Source of the DNA: Peptococcaceae bacterium
Lineage (GTDB): Bacteria > Bacillota > Desulfitobacteriia > Desulfitobacteriales > Syntrophobotulaceae
Assembly: GCA_012839895.1 (NCBI GenBank)
Contig: DUML01000058.1
Coordinates: 1 to 54,046, forward strand
DNA: 54,046 nucleotides
Direction of reading: 5' to 3'
Each line of letters opens with the position of its first letter. The stretch's first letter is position 1. Positions 35,133 to 45,457 of the stretch are shown piece after piece. Under the pieces are notes generated by a model that saw only the letters and a list, made by a program, of their open reading frames with translations, had not been told where the DNA came from and did no database searches. A program made the translations under genes and the position numbers.

Positions 35133-35325
35133 TTTACTGTCCTCCTAAAAAATTCTCCTAAAGATTTTAATAATTATTAAATTTATTGCCGCTAAAAAAG
35201 CCCTTCCCCCTTCCCGGTTATCTACATTTACCATTTTGACAAAGCACCTACAATTATGTTTATTGGAACAGACTAACTTTTATTACAGAGCCTGCTAACG
35301 TTAATATCTCATATCACATTTCATA

Positions 35326-35363
35326 TACTTGCCATATTCAGTTTTAAAACTACACCCTCAATC
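35326..35363. repeat. 38-bp direct repeat, copy 1 (3' flank of the giant gene)
   Basis: TACTTGCCATATTCAGTTTT followed by AAAACTACACCCTCAATC. It matches 43472-43509 at 36 of 38 positions and overlaps the left arm of the giant gene's terminator. Confidence 0.92.
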
Positions 35364-35395: not shown

Positions 35396-38300
35396 CTATC
35401 TAGTTTTACTGTTGATTTCTGTCAGCACTTGCTCCGTGATTACCGCCCGCCCCCCAAAAACATATAGTTTTTCCGGGTTTAACTCTTGAAGGTAAGCCTT
35501 GATTTCCGGGCTGACTTTTTCTTTGCCAGCCAAAAGTACCGGCATCTTCAGCTTGGCAGCTAAAGCACCTCCCGCCAAAGCGTCCGGGTAATTATCCCCG
35601 GTAGCTAGGCCAGCATATAGGTAGGCCGCGCTGTCGCCGGCACTGCCGCCTGCAGCGGAGTAAGACGCAAAGTGCTTGGCGATTTCCAGCCCCGTAAGAT
35701 AACGGTCAGCTCCGCTTAGGCGTGTGACATTGAGCTTCATTTCATTCCTGAGAATATTTTCAACATGGGCTGTAATTACGCTACTGCCGCCGACTAAAAT
35801 TACATTTTGCACTTGCCATTGTTTTAAAGCCTGTTCGGTAGAAGCGCTTAACTCTTCTTTCGCTGTAAAAAGGATAGGTAAACCGTATTGTCCGGAAAAG
35901 GGGCCAATGCTTAAGGCATCCGGATAATCGGAGCCTGTAGTGACAATCACTGTATCAAATACTGAAACGTTGGAGCCTGCTGCAGTTGTCTCGCTTGTTT
36001 TGTTCTGCCCGATTGTGGCAACCTGTTCCCCGATTTGAACCGCCGTTTCATACCGATTGCTGCCGGCCAGGCGGATTACTGTATACTCCTCGGCCAGAGT
36101 TTTTTCCACTTGCGGGGATATGACATCGGGCCCACCCAGCAGATAAACGGTTTGGGCTTTAAGGCGTTTGATCTCCGCCAGCGTCTCACTGCTTACAGCT
36201 TCTTTGGCTGTCAGTAAGACCGGTGCGGATTTCACAGCGGCCAAAACGGTTCCGGCCAAAGCGTCAGGATAGTTTTCACCGCTGGCCAGGATCACATAGT
36301 CCGAAGTCTGCCAGCCCTGAGCGCTGATGGCAACAGCCGTGGCGTAACGGTTCGCTCCGGCCAGGCGGTGGGTGGGAATCCCCTTCTCGCCCATGATATA
36401 AAACTCACAAAGATGGGCGGTGCTGATGCTTAAGGTATACTTTTCCCAGTCAAAGACAGGGGTGTACTCGGTGATGCTGCCGTCTTCCGCCCGTTTAAAC
36501 ACAACCAGGGTACTGGGGTCAATTCCGGCCAGTTCTTCCGGGGTCAATTGGAAGGTCAGGGTGATATCCCCATTGAAACGGGTAATCGTCTCGGCGCGGC
36601 CGTCAGTGTTTTGCCGGGTCATGGTAATCTTAAAGGCTTTCATGATTCCCCGCTTGCCCGGATACCGGACAAAGAAGCTGTTTAAGCTATTTTGGTCGGT
36701 GATAACCGCGGTTTGAATCTCGATCCGCTCACCGTCTGCAGCAAGACTGGGCAAATCCTGCGGATCAATGACAATTTGCAGGCCATCAAAACGAAGGTTG
36801 AAAGGCTGCTTGCTGTTTAAGCTGTCCCTTAACTGCTGGGCCGTGATTACCGTGCTGCCCGATGTCGGTGTCGCGTTGCCACCGCTTCCGCCGCCACCGC
36901 TTGGAGGTGCGGCCTCCGTAACTTTGACTTGAATCATCTGCCGGATATTTTTGTCTACGGTTTTAGCCGTAATGACGGCAATTCCTTTGGATATGGCCCG
37001 GATCCTACCGTTTGCGTCCACGGAAGCGACTGCCGGATTGTCGGAATGATAGATCATTCTTTTATCGGCGGCATCGGCAGGTGAAATAACGGGATTTAGG
37101 TCATAGCTGCCTCCCTGAGGAAGATTCAGCTTTGTCAAGGCCAAGCCGTCGCTTCCCAGGATAACCATGTTTGAAACCCTCACCGGGCTGGGAGGATAAG
37201 CCACCGTGACGGTAAAGGCAGCTGTCTTCGTCGGGTCGTCGACCGACTTTGCGGTGATTTGCGCCGTTCCCTCAGCCAAAGATGTTGCCTTGCCGTCGGG
37301 CGTTATTCTGACAACATTTGGATTGGAAGAGACAAATAGCGCTCTGGTGTCCAACAGGTTTTCTTCACCGGGATTAAGGGTTGTGAAAGTCAAGGCATTG
37401 GCCAAATCCTGGGTGATGTCTTGGCCGGGTTCCACGGTGATATCCGCAGCGGAAATACCGGCGATTAAAGCTTTGGCAGCAGGAACGGTCCCGGTCTCCA
37501 CATAATCGGCCGTCAGGGAGAAGCCGGCATAATCGACTACAGCCCTGTTAACGGTAAGGGTATAGGACGCACCTACCGTAAGCGGCACAGACGGTGTAAA
37601 TCTGGCGACTTTGGTTAGAAGCAAACCACTTTTACCCGAACCGTCCACCCCGGTTTGTGCTCCCTCGGGATAACTTACAGTTCCTGTAACCGGGTTTCCG
37701 TCGGCATCCATTAGCTGGTTTCCGTCAGCATCTGTCAGACGGAAAGCGGAAGTCGCTTCCAGGCTGCGGGTATCCATGTATTTGGTGAAGTAAACATCTA
37801 CATAGCGTCCGCCATTACCCCAGATTACCTTGTCGACTGCCGGTTTGGCCAGGTTCACCATGGGAATATTGACATCAAAATGCGGTGGCGGTACCGGCAG
37901 AGCGTCGCTGTAGGCTGTCAGGTAGCCGTCTTTTACAAACTGCACCATCCACCAGCCTTCCGGCACATCCCAGGCATACCTGCCGTCAGGACCCGTTGTC
38001 TGAGGGTTTTCCTGCAGGTACCACTCAGCATCCCAGAACTGCCATTCCGTGCTGGCTTTAGCTTCCTCGGGAGTATTCGCTTTTTCCTTGGGCAGGAACA
38101 AGGCCGTAGCCGTGACGCCGCTGATCCGGTTGTCTTCTACCGCTTCATAGACAAAGCCGCTGGGGTCCATAACATAGTGCGGTTTGATTTTCAGTATGCG
38201 CGGTATGCTGTAGAGGCCGGTCTCCGGATCATACACCGGCCAGCTGCTTTGATCGACTCTGTCGTACCAATTCTGGCCCCCCGGTAAGTTGTGCAATTCT

Positions 38301-41300
38301 GTCATCAGCATGTTGTAATCGCTTTCAAACTCATTGTCAAACATATCTCCCAGAAGCTTGTCGGAGATAAGGCCGGCGATCCCGCAAACAACCTGTCCCG
38401 CCAGGGGTACCAGGTTTGTGGCGGTGCCTACGCCATCCTGGACAAAGCCCAGGGTTTTGTCCATCAGAATTTCCTTGCCCATTCTAGAGATGCGGTTGTC
38501 GTAATATTCCTGCAAATGCGGTTCCAGGTTGGGACGAATATTTTCATAATCATTCAGCAGTTGAGCCATTTTGGCAGATTTGGACAAATCGCCGAATGCA
38601 TCGGTCAGGTCGTCTATATCGCTTGCCACCTCGATGGTGTTTTTGACAAATCCAAGCGCGCCGGCAGCCGCAACAGCCATGGTCCGCATTCCGTTCTGCT
38701 TACCGGCAGCCACAAAATCCTGTTGCGGGAAAAGCCCTCTGTCCAGATAGCCTGTAATCACGTATTTGCCGTTCACGAGCTCAGCGGAGAAATCATAGCC
38801 GTACATCCCGTTCCCCAAGTGGATGCGGTTTTGGGCATTGGCCGGGTCGAAGGGCACCGTTTCCGCTTTCATGCTGACCGTGCCATAACCCTCCTTATCA
38901 CCGTCCCGTACAGATATTTTAACTTCAGGGAGAAGAAACTCGCTGAGATAGCCGTCCGAACCAAAGGCATAGCGGATATCGTCCTTGGCATTTTCACCGC
39001 CTGTAAACTCGACGTCCGCCTTCTGCAGATAGTCCGGGGCTCTACCGAAATCATGCCTTAAGATCTCCTCAGGCTGCGTGGTTTCCTCGTCATATTCCAC
39101 CGTAATCAGGGGTTCCGTATAGGGGACGTGCGCCTGGAATGCGCCGTTTTCAAAGATGGCATCCCTTCCTGCTATCCTGACGTTATTGACCTTATCATTG
39201 TCTTCAAAGCTGATGCGTACCAAGGAATCTGCTATGACAGTGATTACGAACGGAAACTCGATAAAATTATGCTGCGGCTTGATATTTACACTCATCCAAC
39301 CCTGGCTCATCACCAAGTCCGCAATTTTCGTGCCTTTACTGCCAACCAGCACTACAGCCTCGGCAGTGTACGGCAAACCGTCAACCATGCTTATCGCCGT
39401 CAGCCGGTGATAAATCGGTGTTCCCCTGTCCGGCAAGACTACGTTCATAGTCCAGACACCGGAGGGCGCAGACTGGGTTTCCCCTATTTTCAGATTACCG
39501 TCGTAAAGCTCCACTGTTTGATTGGCGGGTGCCAGGCCGCTCAGAGTGACAGGAGCGGATTTATCAGCCTCTCTGATCATCGGCGGGGCGTTAAGGGTGA
39601 TGAATCGGCAAGGGATTTCGACAAAGCCGATATTCTCAGAAACCGGATTTCCCCCAACAGTAAAATGCAACTCGGCGCTGGCACTGGTACTGTTAAATTC
39701 AACCTTCGAATCGAGCCGGACCTGATAGGTCAAGACCCCTGCCGCCCCTTGGATGCTGTCCTTTAAATCTACTGTTATTATGTTTCCATTAATTGTCGGC
39801 TGCACCGAACCCGCATTGCCCCTTGTGCTCCGGTGAAAGACTGAGCCGTCCACCAGTTTGGCATCGCGCGGGATATAAGCCACCAGGTCCAATTTGTCCC
39901 CGTCAATGGTTTTCAGGTTATCATAATCATAACCAACCCGCAAAGTAACCACCGAGCCCGGGATAGCCGCCTGCTGACTGCAGGTAACACTGCTACCCGC
40001 GTTCCGTTTGAAATATGGGTCTAATTCCGGATAGCGGAGCCGGATCGTGCCGAGATCGTAATCTTCGCCATCCAAGACCTCAAAATATTCGGTAACATAG
40101 CAATCCGGGTAATTTTTCCAGTCCTCAAGATAACTTGATATTATTGTCCTTTGCCAGGAAAATGCCGCACTGTAGCGTCCGGGCGGTACCGAATAAGATA
40201 TTCCCGGAGCTGTTGTTATGTGCCACCAGAGCAGTCTTCCATTTTCATCGAATAGAAACATATATCTGGCTTGGCCGAGCCTTGAACTGCCGTCCAAATC
40301 AGCAAACCGGACGTTTATCTTGGGTTGTTCAGCTAATTGTGTTAAGACAACGTTTACTTCGGCATAGTTATTCTCATCCAGCTTGACTATTTTCGTAGCC
40401 TGCCCGAAACCAAATTCTTGGCCGTCAACGTTAATCTCGATCTCATCGCCCGGTACCCCTTCTATTGTACAATTGCAGTCTGATATTGAGCCCTTTTTAT
40501 TATTACTCAGATTTTTTGCAGAAATATCAAAAATTGATACGATTCGCCAATTCAGGCCTAACTGGACCGTGTTGCCGTGAATATCCTTTGTTTCCACATT
40601 TATTTTGACTCTGGCGTTTAAAGGAAGTTGCACGTTAACAGTATTGACGACTCCTTCTTCTAGAGCCAGCGGTTTTTCAATTCTATCGAAGCATTTTATA
40701 AATAATACTTTATCGGCATTTTTGGGAACTTCCAGGGTATAGTATCCGTTTTCGTCCGTTGACGTGGTTATGGATATGTCTGTTCCGTCTGCCGCAGTTA
40801 GCGGCACCTGAACAGTAACCTGCTCGATGGGCGTGCCACTGGACCCCGTTACTGTACCTTCAAGGGTTACGGCCGGGACTTTTTTCAGGCGGATTACGAT
40901 GATGTTCTCACCTACGGTCAGAGAATTGGCAGCTACTACTTCGGTCTTACTCTCGTACAGAGTGTGAGTGGCAATTAGTTCCAGCCCTTGGTCTCTCCTC
41001 AGGTTTTGGGCGAAGTAGGCGCCGGACGTGGCGGCATAGCCGTCGTTGTCGGTCAGAGCGGACAGATTGTAATCCCGCGTACCGTTAAGATAAATAAGCA
41101 GAGGGCTTCTAACCAGGGCCTTTTCTATAGGTTCTCCGGTTTCGTCATCCACGACCCTTACCTTAAGATGGGAGAAGGTGTCAATGGTGTATTGATACAC
41201 GCTCTCCAGCCCGTCATTAACGGCAACGGTTCCCGGATCTTCATAAATCAGGTATTCCTTGTAATGTTTAAGTTCATAAGATGCCGCTTGGAAATTATCG

Positions 41301-42736
41301 TCCCCGGGCACACCCTCAATCATAAATTCGTTCGGTTTTGCCGGATCTTTCGTTTCAGAAGTAAATGATAACCAACTGTTTGTTTTATGGGCAACGACAA
41401 AACTGTCCTTCAAAAGCTCATGATAGATCTTTACTTGCTCACTGTCCAAGCCGGCGGGGGGCTGTACGGTCAGTTTTATCCGGCCTGCAACCCGGTAGTT
41501 CATATAAACGTTATAAGGAGAGGGATCATCCGGCTTCAGTTTTCCGACCAAGGCCGTAACTTCGCAGATTCCTTCGTTTAAGGTGAAATCGGCAGTATAT
41601 TTTTTACTGCCTGGGGAGGTTTCCGTTAGAGATAGCGATAAGGTTTTATCTACCCTAGCTGTAAGATCCCATTCATTTGTATCTTTGCGAGCCCATTCCT
41701 TATAATGCACCGTCACCTCCGGCGTAAGGCCGGATTGGTTGGAGGTCATTTCGATCTTAACCGTATCCCCCATAAAGAGATAGCCTTCCAGGGTATAACG
41801 CGGCGCTTTCAGCCCAAGGCTTACTATCTCCGGTACAATCTCCGGAAGGGTGGTGACCGTCAGGCTGGGTCCGTCGGTTGTCCACTGGTTGTTGCCGTCT
41901 CCGGCTTCCACCCGGAAAGTATACTCCGTCTCGGCTGCAAGACCGGTGATTTCACAGCCGGTAACATTGCCGGCAACCGTCTGAACCAGTACATCGTTCT
42001 GATATATCTTGTAAGCTGTCACACCAAGATCGTCTGTTGCCGGAGTCCAGCTTAGTTGAACAGAGTTGCTGGTTATGTTACTTGCAGTTAAGGTGCTGCC
42101 TGCAGGCCAGGTAGGTGGACTGTTAGTCTGCGGAAGGGTCGTAACTCTCACTGACGGACCGCCGGTTGTCCACTGGTTGTTGCTGTCTCCGGCTTCCACC
42201 CGGAAAGTATACTCCGTCTCGGCAGCAAGACCGGTAATTACACAGCCGGTAACATCGCCGGCAACCGTCTGAACCAGTACATCGTTCTGATATATCTTGT
42301 AAGCTGTCACACCAATATCGTCTGTTGCCGGAGTCCAGCTAAGTTGAACAGAGTTACTGGTTACGTTGCTTGCAGTTAAGGTGCTGCTCGCCGGCCAGGT
42401 GGGTGGAGCATCTTCGGTATATATGATGTTTACCTTTAACTCCGCACTTACGTACCTGCTGAATTTAAGGGTAAATATTTCTTGATCTTTATCTATAAAA
42501 TTAAAGAGTTCTTTTCTTAAGGTTAAATAATATTTGCCGTCGCTATCATCCTTGCCAAAATCGTAATGCTCACCATCGACATAATAGGCGCCATTGTCAT
42601 AATATATTTTGATAAGCTCCAGAACATTTCCCAACCATTTAACTTCAATTCTTATGTCCTTTTGGTTGACTGGATTTTTATCAAAATATGCTGTTGTGGG
42701 ATCAAGTTCAACACCCTCCTGAAAAGCCAATATCAT
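35396..42736 (-). CDS. Giant multidomain surface protein with three CWB2 repeats, 5' end rearranged
   Basis: 2,446 residues. In order: an X2 (CBM_X2)-like Ig domain (about 10-105, DPTTAYFDKNPVNQKDIRIE); two FN3 domains 96 residues apart that are nearly identical; a long adhesin-like region with carboxypeptidase-regulatory-like units (LEGTVTGSSGTPIEQVTVQV); two Big_2 domains (about 1755-1960); a Gly/Ser linker; and three cell-wall-binding type 2 repeats (about 2123-2446, HRLAGANRYATAVAIS). CWB2 repeats hold surface proteins on cell-wall polymers in clostridia. There is no signal peptide: codons 1-5 are antisense to an AraC fragment, and GAGGT lies a poor 14 nt upstream. The reading frame is otherwise intact over 7.3 kb, so the loss is recent, or the assembly is wrong. 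Confidence 0.88.
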   Translation of the reverse strand: MILAFQEGVELDPTTAYFDKNPVNQKDIRIEVKWLGNVLELIKIYYDNGAYYVDGEHYDFGKDDSDGKYYLTLRKELFNFIDKDQEIFTLKFSRYVSAELKVNIIYTEDAPPTWPASSTLTASNVTSNSVQLSWTPATDDIGVTAYKIYQNDVLVQTVAGDVTGCVITGLAAETEYTFRVEAGDSNNQWTTGGPSVRVTTLPQTNSPPTWPAGSTLTASNITSNSVQLSWTPATDDLGVTAYKIYQNDVLVQTVAGNVTGCEITGLAAETEYTFRVEAGDGNNQWTTDGPSLTVTTLPEIVPEIVSLGLKAPRYTLEGYLFMGDTVKIEMTSNQSGLTPEVTVHYKEWARKDTNEWDLTARVDKTLSLSLTETSPGSKKYTADFTLNEGICEVTALVGKLKPDDPSPYNVYMNYRVAGRIKLTVQPPAGLDSEQVKIYHELLKDSFVVAHKTNSWLSFTSETKDPAKPNEFMIEGVPGDDNFQAASYELKHYKEYLIYEDPGTVAVNDGLESVYQYTIDTFSHLKVRVVDDETGEPIEKALVRSPLLIYLNGTRDYNLSALTDNDGYAATSGAYFAQNLRRDQGLELIATHTLYESKTEVVAANSLTVGENIIVIRLKKVPAVTLEGTVTGSSGTPIEQVTVQVPLTAADGTDISITTSTDENGYYTLEVPKNADKVLFIKCFDRIEKPLALEEGVVNTVNVQLPLNARVKINVETKDIHGNTVQLGLNWRIVSIFDISAKNLSNNKKGSISDCNCTIEGVPGDEIEINVDGQEFGFGQATKIVKLDENNYAEVNVVLTQLAEQPKINVRFADLDGSSRLGQARYMFLFDENGRLLWWHITTAPGISYSVPPGRYSAAFSWQRTIISSYLEDWKNYPDCYVTEYFEVLDGEDYDLGTIRLRYPELDPYFKRNAGSSVTCSQQAAIPGSVVTLRVGYDYDNLKTIDGDKLDLVAYIPRDAKLVDGSVFHRSTRGNAGSVQPTINGNIITVDLKDSIQGAAGVLTYQVRLDSKVEFNSTSASAELHFTVGGNPVSENIGFVEIPCRFITLNAPPMIREADKSAPVTLSGLAPANQTVELYDGNLKIGETQSAPSGVWTMNVVLPDRGTPIYHRLTAISMVDGLPYTAEAVVLVGSKGTKIADLVMSQGWMSVNIKPQHNFIEFPFVITVIADSLVRISFEDNDKVNNVRIAGRDAIFENGAFQAHVPYTEPLITVEYDEETTQPEEILRHDFGRAPDYLQKADVEFTGGENAKDDIRYAFGSDGYLSEFLLPEVKISVRDGDKEGYGTVSMKAETVPFDPANAQNRIHLGNGMYGYDFSAELVNGKYVITGYLDRGLFPQQDFVAAGKQNGMRTMAVAAAGALGFVKNTIEVASDIDDLTDAFGDLSKSAKMAQLLNDYENIRPNLEPHLQEYYDNRISRMGKEILMDKTLGFVQDGVGTATNLVPLAGQVVCGIAGLISDKLLGDMFDNEFESDYNMLMTELHNLPGGQNWYDRVDQSSWPVYDPETGLYSIPRILKIKPHYVMDPSGFVYEAVEDNRISGVTATALFLPKEKANTPEEAKASTEWQFWDAEWYLQENPQTTGPDGRYAWDVPEGWWMVQFVKDGYLTAYSDALPVPPPHFDVNIPMVNLAKPAVDKVIWGNGGRYVDVYFTKYMDTRSLEATSAFRLTDADGNQLMDADGNPVTGTVSYPEGAQTGVDGSGKSGLLLTKVARFTPSVPLTVGASYTLTVNRAVVDYAGFSLTADYVETGTVPAAKALIAGISAADITVEPGQDITQDLANALTFTTLNPGEENLLDTRALFVSSNPNVVRITPDGKATSLAEGTAQITAKSVDDPTKTAAFTVTVAYPPSPVRVSNMVILGSDGLALTKLNLPQGGSYDLNPVISPADAADKRMIYHSDNPAVASVDANGRIRAISKGIAVITAKTVDKNIRQMIQVKVTEAAPPSGGGGSGGNATPTSGSTVITAQQLRDSLNSKQPFNLRFDGLQIVIDPQDLPSLAADGERIEIQTAVITDQNSLNSFFVRYPGKRGIMKAFKITMTRQNTDGRAETITRFNGDITLTFQLTPEELAGIDPSTLVVFKRAEDGSITEYTPVFDWEKYTLSISTAHLCEFYIMGEKGIPTHRLAGANRYATAVAISAQGWQTSDYVILASGENYPDALAGTVLAAVKSAPVLLTAKEAVSSETLAEIKRLKAQTVYLLGGPDVISPQVEKTLAEEYTVIRLAGSNRYETAVQIGEQVATIGQNKTSETTAAGSNVSVFDTVIVTTGSDYPDALSIGPFSGQYGLPILFTAKEELSASTEQALKQWQVQNVILVGGSSVITAHVENILRNEMKLNVTRLSGADRYLTGLEIAKHFASYSAAGGSAGDSAAYLYAGLATGDNYPDALAGGALAAKLKMPVLLAGKEKVSPEIKAYLQELNPEKLYVFGGRAVITEQVLTEINSKTR
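41832..42407. repeat. Two tandem 288-bp FN3-coding units
   Basis: The units 41832-42119 and 42120-42407 code for the two FN3 domains of the giant protein. They are nearly identical in DNA, with long exact runs such as TCTGAACCAGTACATCGTTC, and are exactly in frame, showing a recent duplication. Confidence 0.88.
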
Positions 42737-43430
42737 TAAGGCCGTTGAATACCTCGAACAGAACTGGAATGAAGCTTATAACTTAAATTTAGTGGCCAAA
42801 ATTGCTAAGCTAAGTCCGTCTCATTTTTCCCGTGTGTTTAAAAGCGAAATGGGGATTACACCGTACCAATATTACCAGAAACTTAAAATAGAGCATCTTA
42901 TGGAAAAGCTAAACGATACCACCATCAGCATAAAAGAAGCATTTAAGTCCTGTGGGCTAAAATACTCCGGGCAATCTTTTGCCGCCTTTAAAAAGCATGT
43001 AGGGGTTACGCCTTCACAATACATCCTGGTACATGCTGCTGATATCAAGCTTTTCGATTTTGTAATGCTTCTTAATGGATTTGACAGGCACCCTAACATT
43101 CGGCACAGCAATGCTTTGCCCTTGGAAGACTTTTCTGACCAAATCCATCAACCCGCTCTTCTGGACCTCCAAATCCCGGAATATATTATATTTGCCGATT
43201 ACTAAATCTTTGTCTTGAATTCCAAATTGAGCCAACATGGCCCTATTGACCATAACCGTAGTCCCATCCCGTGCAAAAACCTCAAGGGGATACGGAAGAT
43301 GCTCAATAATCTTAAAAAAAGCTCTTTCCTTCCCCGGACAGCCTGGAAGGAGGTCTGGACTATATTAAGTTCTTCATTAAATTCTTCCTGATTGAAGTCA
43401 GTCTTTTCCTGCAAGGATGATAAACCTCCT
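42727..43430. pseudogene. Broken PAS-AraC regulator with an inverted C-terminal half
   Basis: The minus strand from about 43430 carries a start (TTG with AGAGGAGG) and half a PAS domain (HLPYPLEVFARDGTTVMVNR, then AMLAQFGIQ), matching the intact regulator at 44657 (SFPFPVQIFDSDGTAIMINQ). The reading frame shifts at a run of seven A (plus strand, about 43314-43320). At about 43030-43060 the match ends. The plus strand 42727-43030 carries the AraC helix-turn-helix part (KLSPSHFSRVFKSEMGITPY, GVTPSQYI), so the C-terminal half lies inverted. The left edge of that piece supplies the ATG of the giant ORF. Confidence 0.85.
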
Positions 43431-43471
43431 CTTTGGAAATTTTTTCTATAACCATTATACCACAGAGTATG

Positions 43472-43509
43472 TACTTGCCATATTCAATTTTAAAACTACA
43501 CCTTCAATC
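43472..43509. repeat. 38-bp direct repeat, copy 2
   Basis: TACTTGCCATATTCAATTTT followed by AAAACTACACCTTCAATC, 36 of 38 identical to 35326-35363 and in the same place relative to the end of the paralogous gene remnant. The spacing between copies is 8,146 bp. Confidence 0.92.
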
Positions 43510-43514
43510 ATATC

Positions 43515-44277
43515 TCAATAAAGCCGAAAGGCGTAGAAGTTACTCCCCAACTTAAGATCAGCCCCGGCGCTGATCTTTTCCCGCAGAAGCGGTGAATCCA
43601 CCCTGACCTGATAGGTCAATACTCCTGCCGCTCCTGCAATGTGATCTTTCAAATCAAGCGTAATACTGTCAGCACTAATCACCGATTGAACAGGATCGGC
43701 ACTTCCCTTTGTACTCCATTGCTGAACCGAGCCTTCCACCAGGGTGGTACCGTCCGGGATCTGAGCGATCAAGTCCAGCATGCTGCCGTCCAGGTCTCTA
43801 AGATTATCATAGTCATACCCCACCCGCAAATGCTATTCCTGGTCTTGTTATACACGAAGATACACAAATCATGGTGGAGGATCAGATTAAAGTCCGTCTC
43901 CGTGACATTGCCGTAATGATCTACTAACACCGGATACACTCTGACTCTGCCGTCAAAGGGAGGAAATGTAAAGTCAAAAGTATTGGTGCCGTCCTGCAAC
44001 ACCAGAGATTTGCTGTGTTCCTGGTCTGCTACGCTGAAAGTTACTGTCCCCGCCACTTTGGGAACTTGCATGGTATAAAAACCATTCTCGTCCGTTAGCG
44101 CAGTCAGGGATTTATCGGTCCCAACAGAAGCAGTTAAGGGCTCGTGATGCCAGTTATGATTCTTACGTCGATGCCACCCCCGCCGCTTCCGTCACCCTGG
44201 GCGTAAACCGCTCCCCCGGCCGGAAGGATGGTCAGGATCAGAAGAAAGGCCAAAAATACCGAGAAAACTTTCTTCAT
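43515..44277 (-). pseudogene. Remnant of a tandem paralogue of the giant surface-protein gene
   Basis: From 44277 (ATG after GGAGGAAGTGAA) the frame gives a signal peptide, MKKVFSVFLAFLLILTILPA and GGAVYA, then stops at 44134 after a deletion. The next piece (about 43850-44130) matches the carboxypeptidase-regulatory-like part of the giant protein (TDENGFYTMQVPK against TDENGYYTLEVPK). The last piece (43515-43829) matches its MRVGYDYDNL and GAAGVLTYQVRVDS region. At least two internal deletions have removed over 6 kb. The remnant ends in a degenerate copy of the giant gene's terminator. Confidence 0.87.
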
Positions 44278-44656
44278 TTCACTTCCTCCATCACGATCAC
44301 AATATTTGCTTGTCAGAATCCTTTGGCTGCGCCGGCATCTGCCTTATCTGTAAAGTTTTCGGGTATTTGAGAAAAGACCGAAGCCTTGGGCATAACCTCC
44401 TTTCTTGCGCCGCATCAGGGCTTCCATGCCATATAGCAGGATAACGGCAATGGACGTCCCTTCCGTTTGCCTGGTATCTTCTGCAAGAAACTCTCTTCCG
44501 CTATAAAATACTGAATTCCGGCTTTTCCGTATATACAATCCCGTGCTATGATATATCGAATAATGCTGTTTTGCTTGCAAAAATTTAGGAAGGTCCTTTT
44601 AGAGAATTACAATATTTGGTATAATTTTGTTATTGAACAAACACAAGGAGGTTCCT

Positions 44657-45457
44657 ATGGAAGGCCAAGGATCAGTCCGGCAACTCTCCAAGATGACACA
44701 ATTGGCAAGGGCCGATAATCTTGAAGCATTAGCGGCGAAAATATTGGACTCCTTTCCGTTCCCCGTTCAGATCTTTGACTCCGACGGCACTGCAATCATG
44801 ATCAACCAAGCCGGGTTAGAGATGTTTGGCATCCGTGAGGAAGAGCATATCGGCATTTATAATGCTTTTCAAGATCCACTGGTCAGAGACAACGGTGTTA
44901 TGGATCAATTGAAGCAAGTGCTGAAGGGAAAAACCGTTTACCTGCACAATTTTCTTGGTTCCTATCAGGATATGATCAAGTATTTTAACTCTAAAGACCG
45001 GGACATCAAAACCATACAAGCGGACATAACTTGCTTTCCTCTGCTGAAACCGGACGGCACAGTAGACTGCTTTATTGCTATATTTTTTATAAAGAAAATA
45101 TACTGGTTCAGGGATGAGATCCGAAAGGGCAAAGAATATCTTAATAAGCACTGGCAAGGGAAGTATAACGTCAGAAAGGTTGCCGAAGCGGCCAATTTAA
45201 GCGTTTATCACTTCATAAGGCTGTTTAAAAAACACCTGGGGATAACCCCTCATGATTACTATCTCAATGTTAAAATACGCAAAATTCAAGAGCAACTGCA
45301 AGACCCCAACCTGACAGTTGCTGAAGCCTTTGCCGCATGCGGCGTCGATTATCACAGTCATTTTGCCAAGGTGTTTAAAAAGAAAACCGGGCTCTCCCCT
45401 TCACAATACCGGAAAATGGCACTACAAGAAAAATCCGATATCCTTGATATCACCTAG
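44657..45457 (+). CDS. AraC-family regulator with an N-terminal PAS domain
   Basis: A 266-residue regulator. A PAS domain spans about residues 20-140 (SFPFPVQIFDSDGTAIMINQ, AGLEMFGI), and the C-terminal third is an AraC-type double helix-turn-helix (NVRKVAEAANLSVYHFIRLF, KKTGLSPSQYR). Proteins of this build activate surface or catabolic genes in response to a ligand or redox signal sensed by PAS; the signal is not known. The ATG at 44657 follows AAGGAGG; the frame from 44627 adds ten unsupported residues. It is divergent from the paralogue remnant, and a broken sister regulator lies between that remnant and the giant gene, so each giant gene probably once had its own regulator. Confidence 0.88.
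   Translation: MEGQGSVRQLSKMTQLARADNLEALAAKILDSFPFPVQIFDSDGTAIMINQAGLEMFGIREEEHIGIYNAFQDPLVRDNGVMDQLKQVLKGKTVYLHNFLGSYQDMIKYFNSKDRDIKTIQADITCFPLLKPDGTVDCFIAIFFIKKIYWFRDEIRKGKEYLNKHWQGKYNVRKVAEAANLSVYHFIRLFKKHLGITPHDYYLNVKIRKIQEQLQDPNLTVAEAFAACGVDYHSHFAKVFKKKTGLSPSQYRKMALQEKSDILDIT

Follow-up and report, generated by a model that had tools for sequence, protein, structure and literature searches.

Gene content of the locus

The window, by which we mean the whole stretch of 54,046 nucleotides that was analyzed, carries on its minus strand the gene of a giant surface protein without its head (gene A). Beyond its start lie the two halves of a PAS-AraC regulator in opposite orientations, then a decayed copy of the giant gene (remnant B) and an intact divergent regulator (Table 1).

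Gene A contained no internal stop across 2,446 codons. The stop-to-stop frame comprised 2,459 codons, the nearest in-frame stop upstream being located just past 13 codons before the ATG. The order of domains was X2, two fn3, CarboxypepD_reg, Big_2 and three CWB2, the last found as three stretches (PF04122, E 1e-55) which mark the product as a surface protein. The X2 match, starting at residue 12, reached 24.2 bits and thus stayed under the Pfam cut-off, compared with 39.8 bits in the paralogue described below. Another CWB2 region was present on a different contig of the same genome (G000:C79:58047-58958), inside a 7,608-aa open frame.

A home-made hydropathy test found no signal-peptide-like start in codons 1–400 of gene A, while the same test was positive on the paralogue and on the orphan signal-peptide frame of remnant B. 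Inspection of the sequence found no Shine-Dalgarno motif at a usable spacing before the ATG at 42736. The first codons of the gene overlap, in antisense orientation, an AraC helix-turn-helix (HTH) domain encoded on the plus strand at 42723–43022 (PF12833, 1.2e-17). The first-pass annotation had described a 7.3-kb frame open from X2 to three CWB2 repeats, lacking a signal peptide and starting antisense to the AraC HTH, with a junction somewhere within 42706–42730. All of these descriptions held, and the homology ends reported below narrowed the junction to 42721–42726.

Table 1. Positions of the features at the locus within the window.
Feature	Position	Strand	Remarks
Giant surface-protein gene A, head missing	35396..42736	minus	2,446-aa open frame, no signal peptide, no usable RBS
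Junction J1, end of gene A/C11 homology and start of flipped HTH	42721..42726		3–4 nt common (GAA/GAAA)
Flipped HTH half of PAS-AraC regulator	42721..43022	plus	corresponds to G035 regulator residues 207–308
Junction J2, flipped HTH/PAS half	43021..43022		2-nt overlap (AC)
PAS half of the same regulator, original orientation	43021..43420	minus	1-nt frameshift at A-run near 43312
Promoter-like site ATGGCA-16-TATAAT, extended -10	43454..43481	minus	consensus match only, before regulator remnant
Remnant B, third giant-gene copy, heavily deleted and frameshifted	43469..44277	minus	signal peptide, gene pieces, terminator copy
Orphan signal-peptide frame	44134..44277	minus	47 codons then stop; head of remnant B
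Intact divergent PAS-AraC regulator, past remnant B	44627..45457	plus	276 aa

Full-length paralogue and the missing head of gene A

Besides remnant B, the genome contained a single other copy of the gene A type, on contig C11. This paralogue encodes 2,545 aa and is 70% identical to gene A along 2,400 residues. Its N-terminus, MKKVFTVFLVLLLILTMLPTGGALYAEG, is a signal peptide, preceded by a GAGGAGG ribosome-binding site, and about 110 more residues separate the signal peptide from the X2 domain. The DNA homology between the two genes stops at about 42724–42726, right at the junction, which indicates that gene A is short of about 137 codons. The head sequence occurs once in the assembly, in C11, and remnant B repeats no more of it than the signal peptide; gene A's own missing 5' DNA was not found in any orientation.

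A scan of genome contigs and viral contigs yielded no orthologues of gene A. Searched at the level of the order, it gave only partial matches outside its own genome, mostly to the fn3 repeats, and at the level of the phylum only distant homologues. Five of these giant homologues were inspected by eye, and all had N-termini resembling signal peptides.

The broken regulator and its junctions

An intact PAS-AraC regulator of 314 aa was present in G035, a relative of the same order, where it follows a surface gene at its CWB2 end. Its HTH half matched window positions 42721–43022 (80%) in one orientation and its PAS half matched 43021–43375 (76%) in the opposite one. At the protein level, residues 207–308 of the G035 regulator were flipped in the window and residues 73–182 were in place, while residues 183–206 and the last few were absent, so that about 72–80 bp of the regulator is gone between the PAS half and the flipped HTH half. 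The roughly 100 codons of the flipped HTH remain an open frame. The two halves do not share one open frame, as they lie on opposite strands and one frameshift is added. At the other end of the flipped piece, homology to the G035 regulator starts at 42721, and that between gene A and C11 reaches 42724–42726.

Promoter-like sites in the region were as numerous as expected from shuffled sequence. Judged from its motif, the site before the regulator remnant could still permit transcription toward gene A.

Remnant B and the orphan signal peptide

After the signal peptide and its stop, remnant B consists of pieces corresponding to gene A residues 644–730 and 931–1024, in other frames, after which the 3' terminator region of gene A occurs a second time (43469–43509 matching 35323–35363, 93%). 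The pieces showed 75–85% DNA identity to C11 but 69–71% to gene A. The orphan signal peptide was considered as gene A's own head and rejected for this role, because the pieces of remnant B match C11 better than gene A and because remnant B carries separate duplicates of internal gene segments, which are colinear with those of C11, as well as a separate terminator copy. The signal peptide of 47 codons noticed in the first-pass annotation is thus real, but tying it to gene A was mistaken, as it heads a third copy. By these sequence comparisons, remnant B is a copy that decayed on its own, separately from gene A.

Regulators and exported genes in other genomes

PAS-AraC regulators were located directly upstream, on the same strand, of giant genes with a signal peptide on C11 and in G036, G007 and G014. 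On C11 a gap of 295 bp separates the regulator from the 2,545-aa gene, and additional regulators as well as one PAS-only gene lie behind it; the surface genes preceded by a regulator in the other three encode 2,376 aa (G036), 2,090 aa (G007) and at least 730 aa (G014). From these arrangements it follows that the window most likely once had, along the minus strand, a regulator, a gap, a signal peptide and gene A.

In a scan of GTDB species genomes, an exported gene was found downstream of a regulator of this family at 41 of 59 loci, when up to three same-strand genes were considered at distances of up to 2.5 kb. The expectation was 31%, derived from a per-gene background of 11.6%, with signal peptides called by the home-made test. 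The upstream control gave 19 of 44, and the enrichment is therefore moderate. No relevant paper on the pairing of PAS-AraC regulators with surface genes was found in the literature, and its recurrence with exported genes in anaerobic Clostridia may merit a separate study.

Family regulators recur in Clostridia upstream of exported and sometimes giant genes (L004:8994-12116, L118:3994-12271, L123:5991-15424, L126-L205). Tandem arrangements are frequent there, and a PAS-only gene of 160–190 aa often comes next. Single ORFs of 544–570 aa that consist of two PAS-AraC units fused head to tail were also seen (L120:1344-3053, L123:5991-7622). Recurrent flipping of the HTH within the family was looked for at about 90 loci and dropped, as the window was the only case and the other listed pairs were same-strand tandem neighbours.

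Divergence and age

Between gene A and C11, dS was 0.74 and dN 0.19. The resulting ratio of 0.255 indicates that gene A was under purifying selection through most of its separate history. By calculation, a frame of 7.3 kb that evolves neutrally has a 95% probability of being broken by one or more stops or frameshifts once divergence reaches 0.3–0.7%; since the frame is intact, the loss would be young, provided that gene A is now unconstrained. The divergence between the two genes was patchy, with dS of about 0.3–0.5 at codons 5–205 and 1419–2018 and about 1 elsewhere, a pattern expected if the copies had undergone gene conversion with each other.

Origin of the arrangement

Both junctions, the missing segments, their intact counterparts and the lack of flanking repeats can be read in the assembled sequence of the locus and in its intact homologues. 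They are most probably explained by a single recent inversion of microhomology scale, accompanied by deletions, which broke the regulator and gene A together and left gene A as a young pseudogene. The intact homologues reveal what each gene has lost, C11 for gene A and the G035 regulator for the other, as is characteristic of pseudogenes made by rearrangement. The ancestral locus, as deduced, would have had on the minus strand the PAS-AraC regulator, a gap of about 300 bp, and gene A with its ribosome-binding site, a signal peptide, about 110 residues and X2, an order that C11 has kept. One non-homologous event using overlaps of 2–4 nt would then have inverted the 302-bp HTH part in place. An in-place flip of this length, with loss on both sides and such short overlaps, would fit template switching or end joining after breaks. 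The loss would amount to about 72–80 bp on the regulator side and to an estimated 0.7 kb, a length deduced from C11, between HTH and X2 on the other, comprising the tail of the regulator, the intergenic region and the first approximately 137 codons of gene A. That all this happened in one event is argued from parsimony, and a deletion and an inversion occurring independently would leave the same picture. Both genes would have been knocked out at once, the regulator by being parted from its DNA-binding half and gene A by losing its ribosome-binding site and export signal, and the product of gene A would be silent or, at most, made at a low level within the cell.

An artefact of the assembly or the library, in which a chimeric molecule or contig fused gene A to the flipped regulator piece while both are intact in the true genome, seems unlikely. 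In amplified libraries chimeric molecules often fuse inverted neighbouring sequence at short overlaps, and the genome is an assembly of 132 contigs with 2.9% contamination, both of which speak for such an artefact. However, two close junctions would both have to be false, and the missing head of gene A is on no other contig, although an intact locus should leave a trace in the data. When the junction region was compared with the rest of the window and with the C11 sequence analyzed, the longest exact match was 18 nt and none longer than 11 nt crossed a junction, which makes repeat-driven misassembly unlikely. The same applies to the misassembly between tandem copies that was one of the three options of the first-pass annotation.

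Another of these options was a reversible inversion that turns the protein off. In such a switch, a recombinase would flip the HTH-bearing segment, and in the other orientation gene A would have its signal peptide and be made. The intact frame would suit this reading, and so would the layout, which is similar to that of cwpV in Clostridioides difficile. There, imperfect 21-bp inverted repeats surround 195 bp, the recombinase RecV acts at them, and its gene lies far from cwpV (PMC2784873). In both cases a short inverted segment is located directly before a CWB2 gene (195 bp compared with 302 bp in the window), but the cwpV system has repeats, a recombinase and whole coding sequence, while the segment in the window is part of a broken regulator, coding DNA has been lost at both breakpoints and repeats are absent. 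No inverted repeats beyond chance were found at the ends of the segment, the longest inverted match near J1 and J2 being 8 nt, which is typical of random pairs, and the scanned ORFs of the window included no recombinase. Among the approximately 130 neighbours examined there was no other PAS/HTH pair on opposite strands. Furthermore, flipping the segment back would return neither the 72–80 bp of the regulator nor the approximately 137 codons, and as the head is absent from the assembly, restoring the orientation could not repair gene A. A switch is accordingly the least probable of the readings weighed here.

It is highly improbable that the headless protein is nevertheless made and useful, either within the cell or after signal-peptide-independent export. 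Its 2,446 stop-free codons and, weakly, the possibility of transcription from the old regulator promoter would be consistent with this. Nevertheless, the ATG has no Shine-Dalgarno motif, CWB2 domains act at the cell wall, C11 and the five distant homologues start with signal-peptide-like sequences, and recency explains the intact frame equally well. Even less credence is given to the form in which the 2,446-aa protein has a role inside the cell or a signal-peptide-free exit and the intact frame reflects present selection.

Gene A is thus most likely an ordinary young pseudogene and not an on/off switch. Among the three options raised earlier, the very recent rearrangement is the one that agrees with the data, as both junctions are readable with the help of the paralogue and the intact regulator and as a neutral frame of this length tolerates only about 0.3–0.7% divergence; the reversible switch does not, and the misassembly between tandem copies is unlikely.

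Comparison with known systems

The finding is of an ordinary kind, with modest interest arising from the joint loss of a regulator and its probable target. The locus illustrates that a regulator and the neighbouring surface-protein gene can vanish in one small rearrangement, and it is also a caution for automatic annotation, as an intact 7-kb frame may be a dead gene. Compared with giant CWB2 surface proteins of the C11 type, gene A has similar domain content and the same three C-terminal CWB2 repeats, but it lacks the ribosome-binding site, the signal peptide and the approximately 110 further residues. The in-place flip, the loss at its ends, the overlaps of 2–4 nt, the absence of long repeats and the broken frames are as in bacterial pseudogenes made by short inversions with flanking deletions. 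The difference from these is that here one event seems to have struck both a regulator and the adjacent surface gene, leaving a 7.3-kb frame open.
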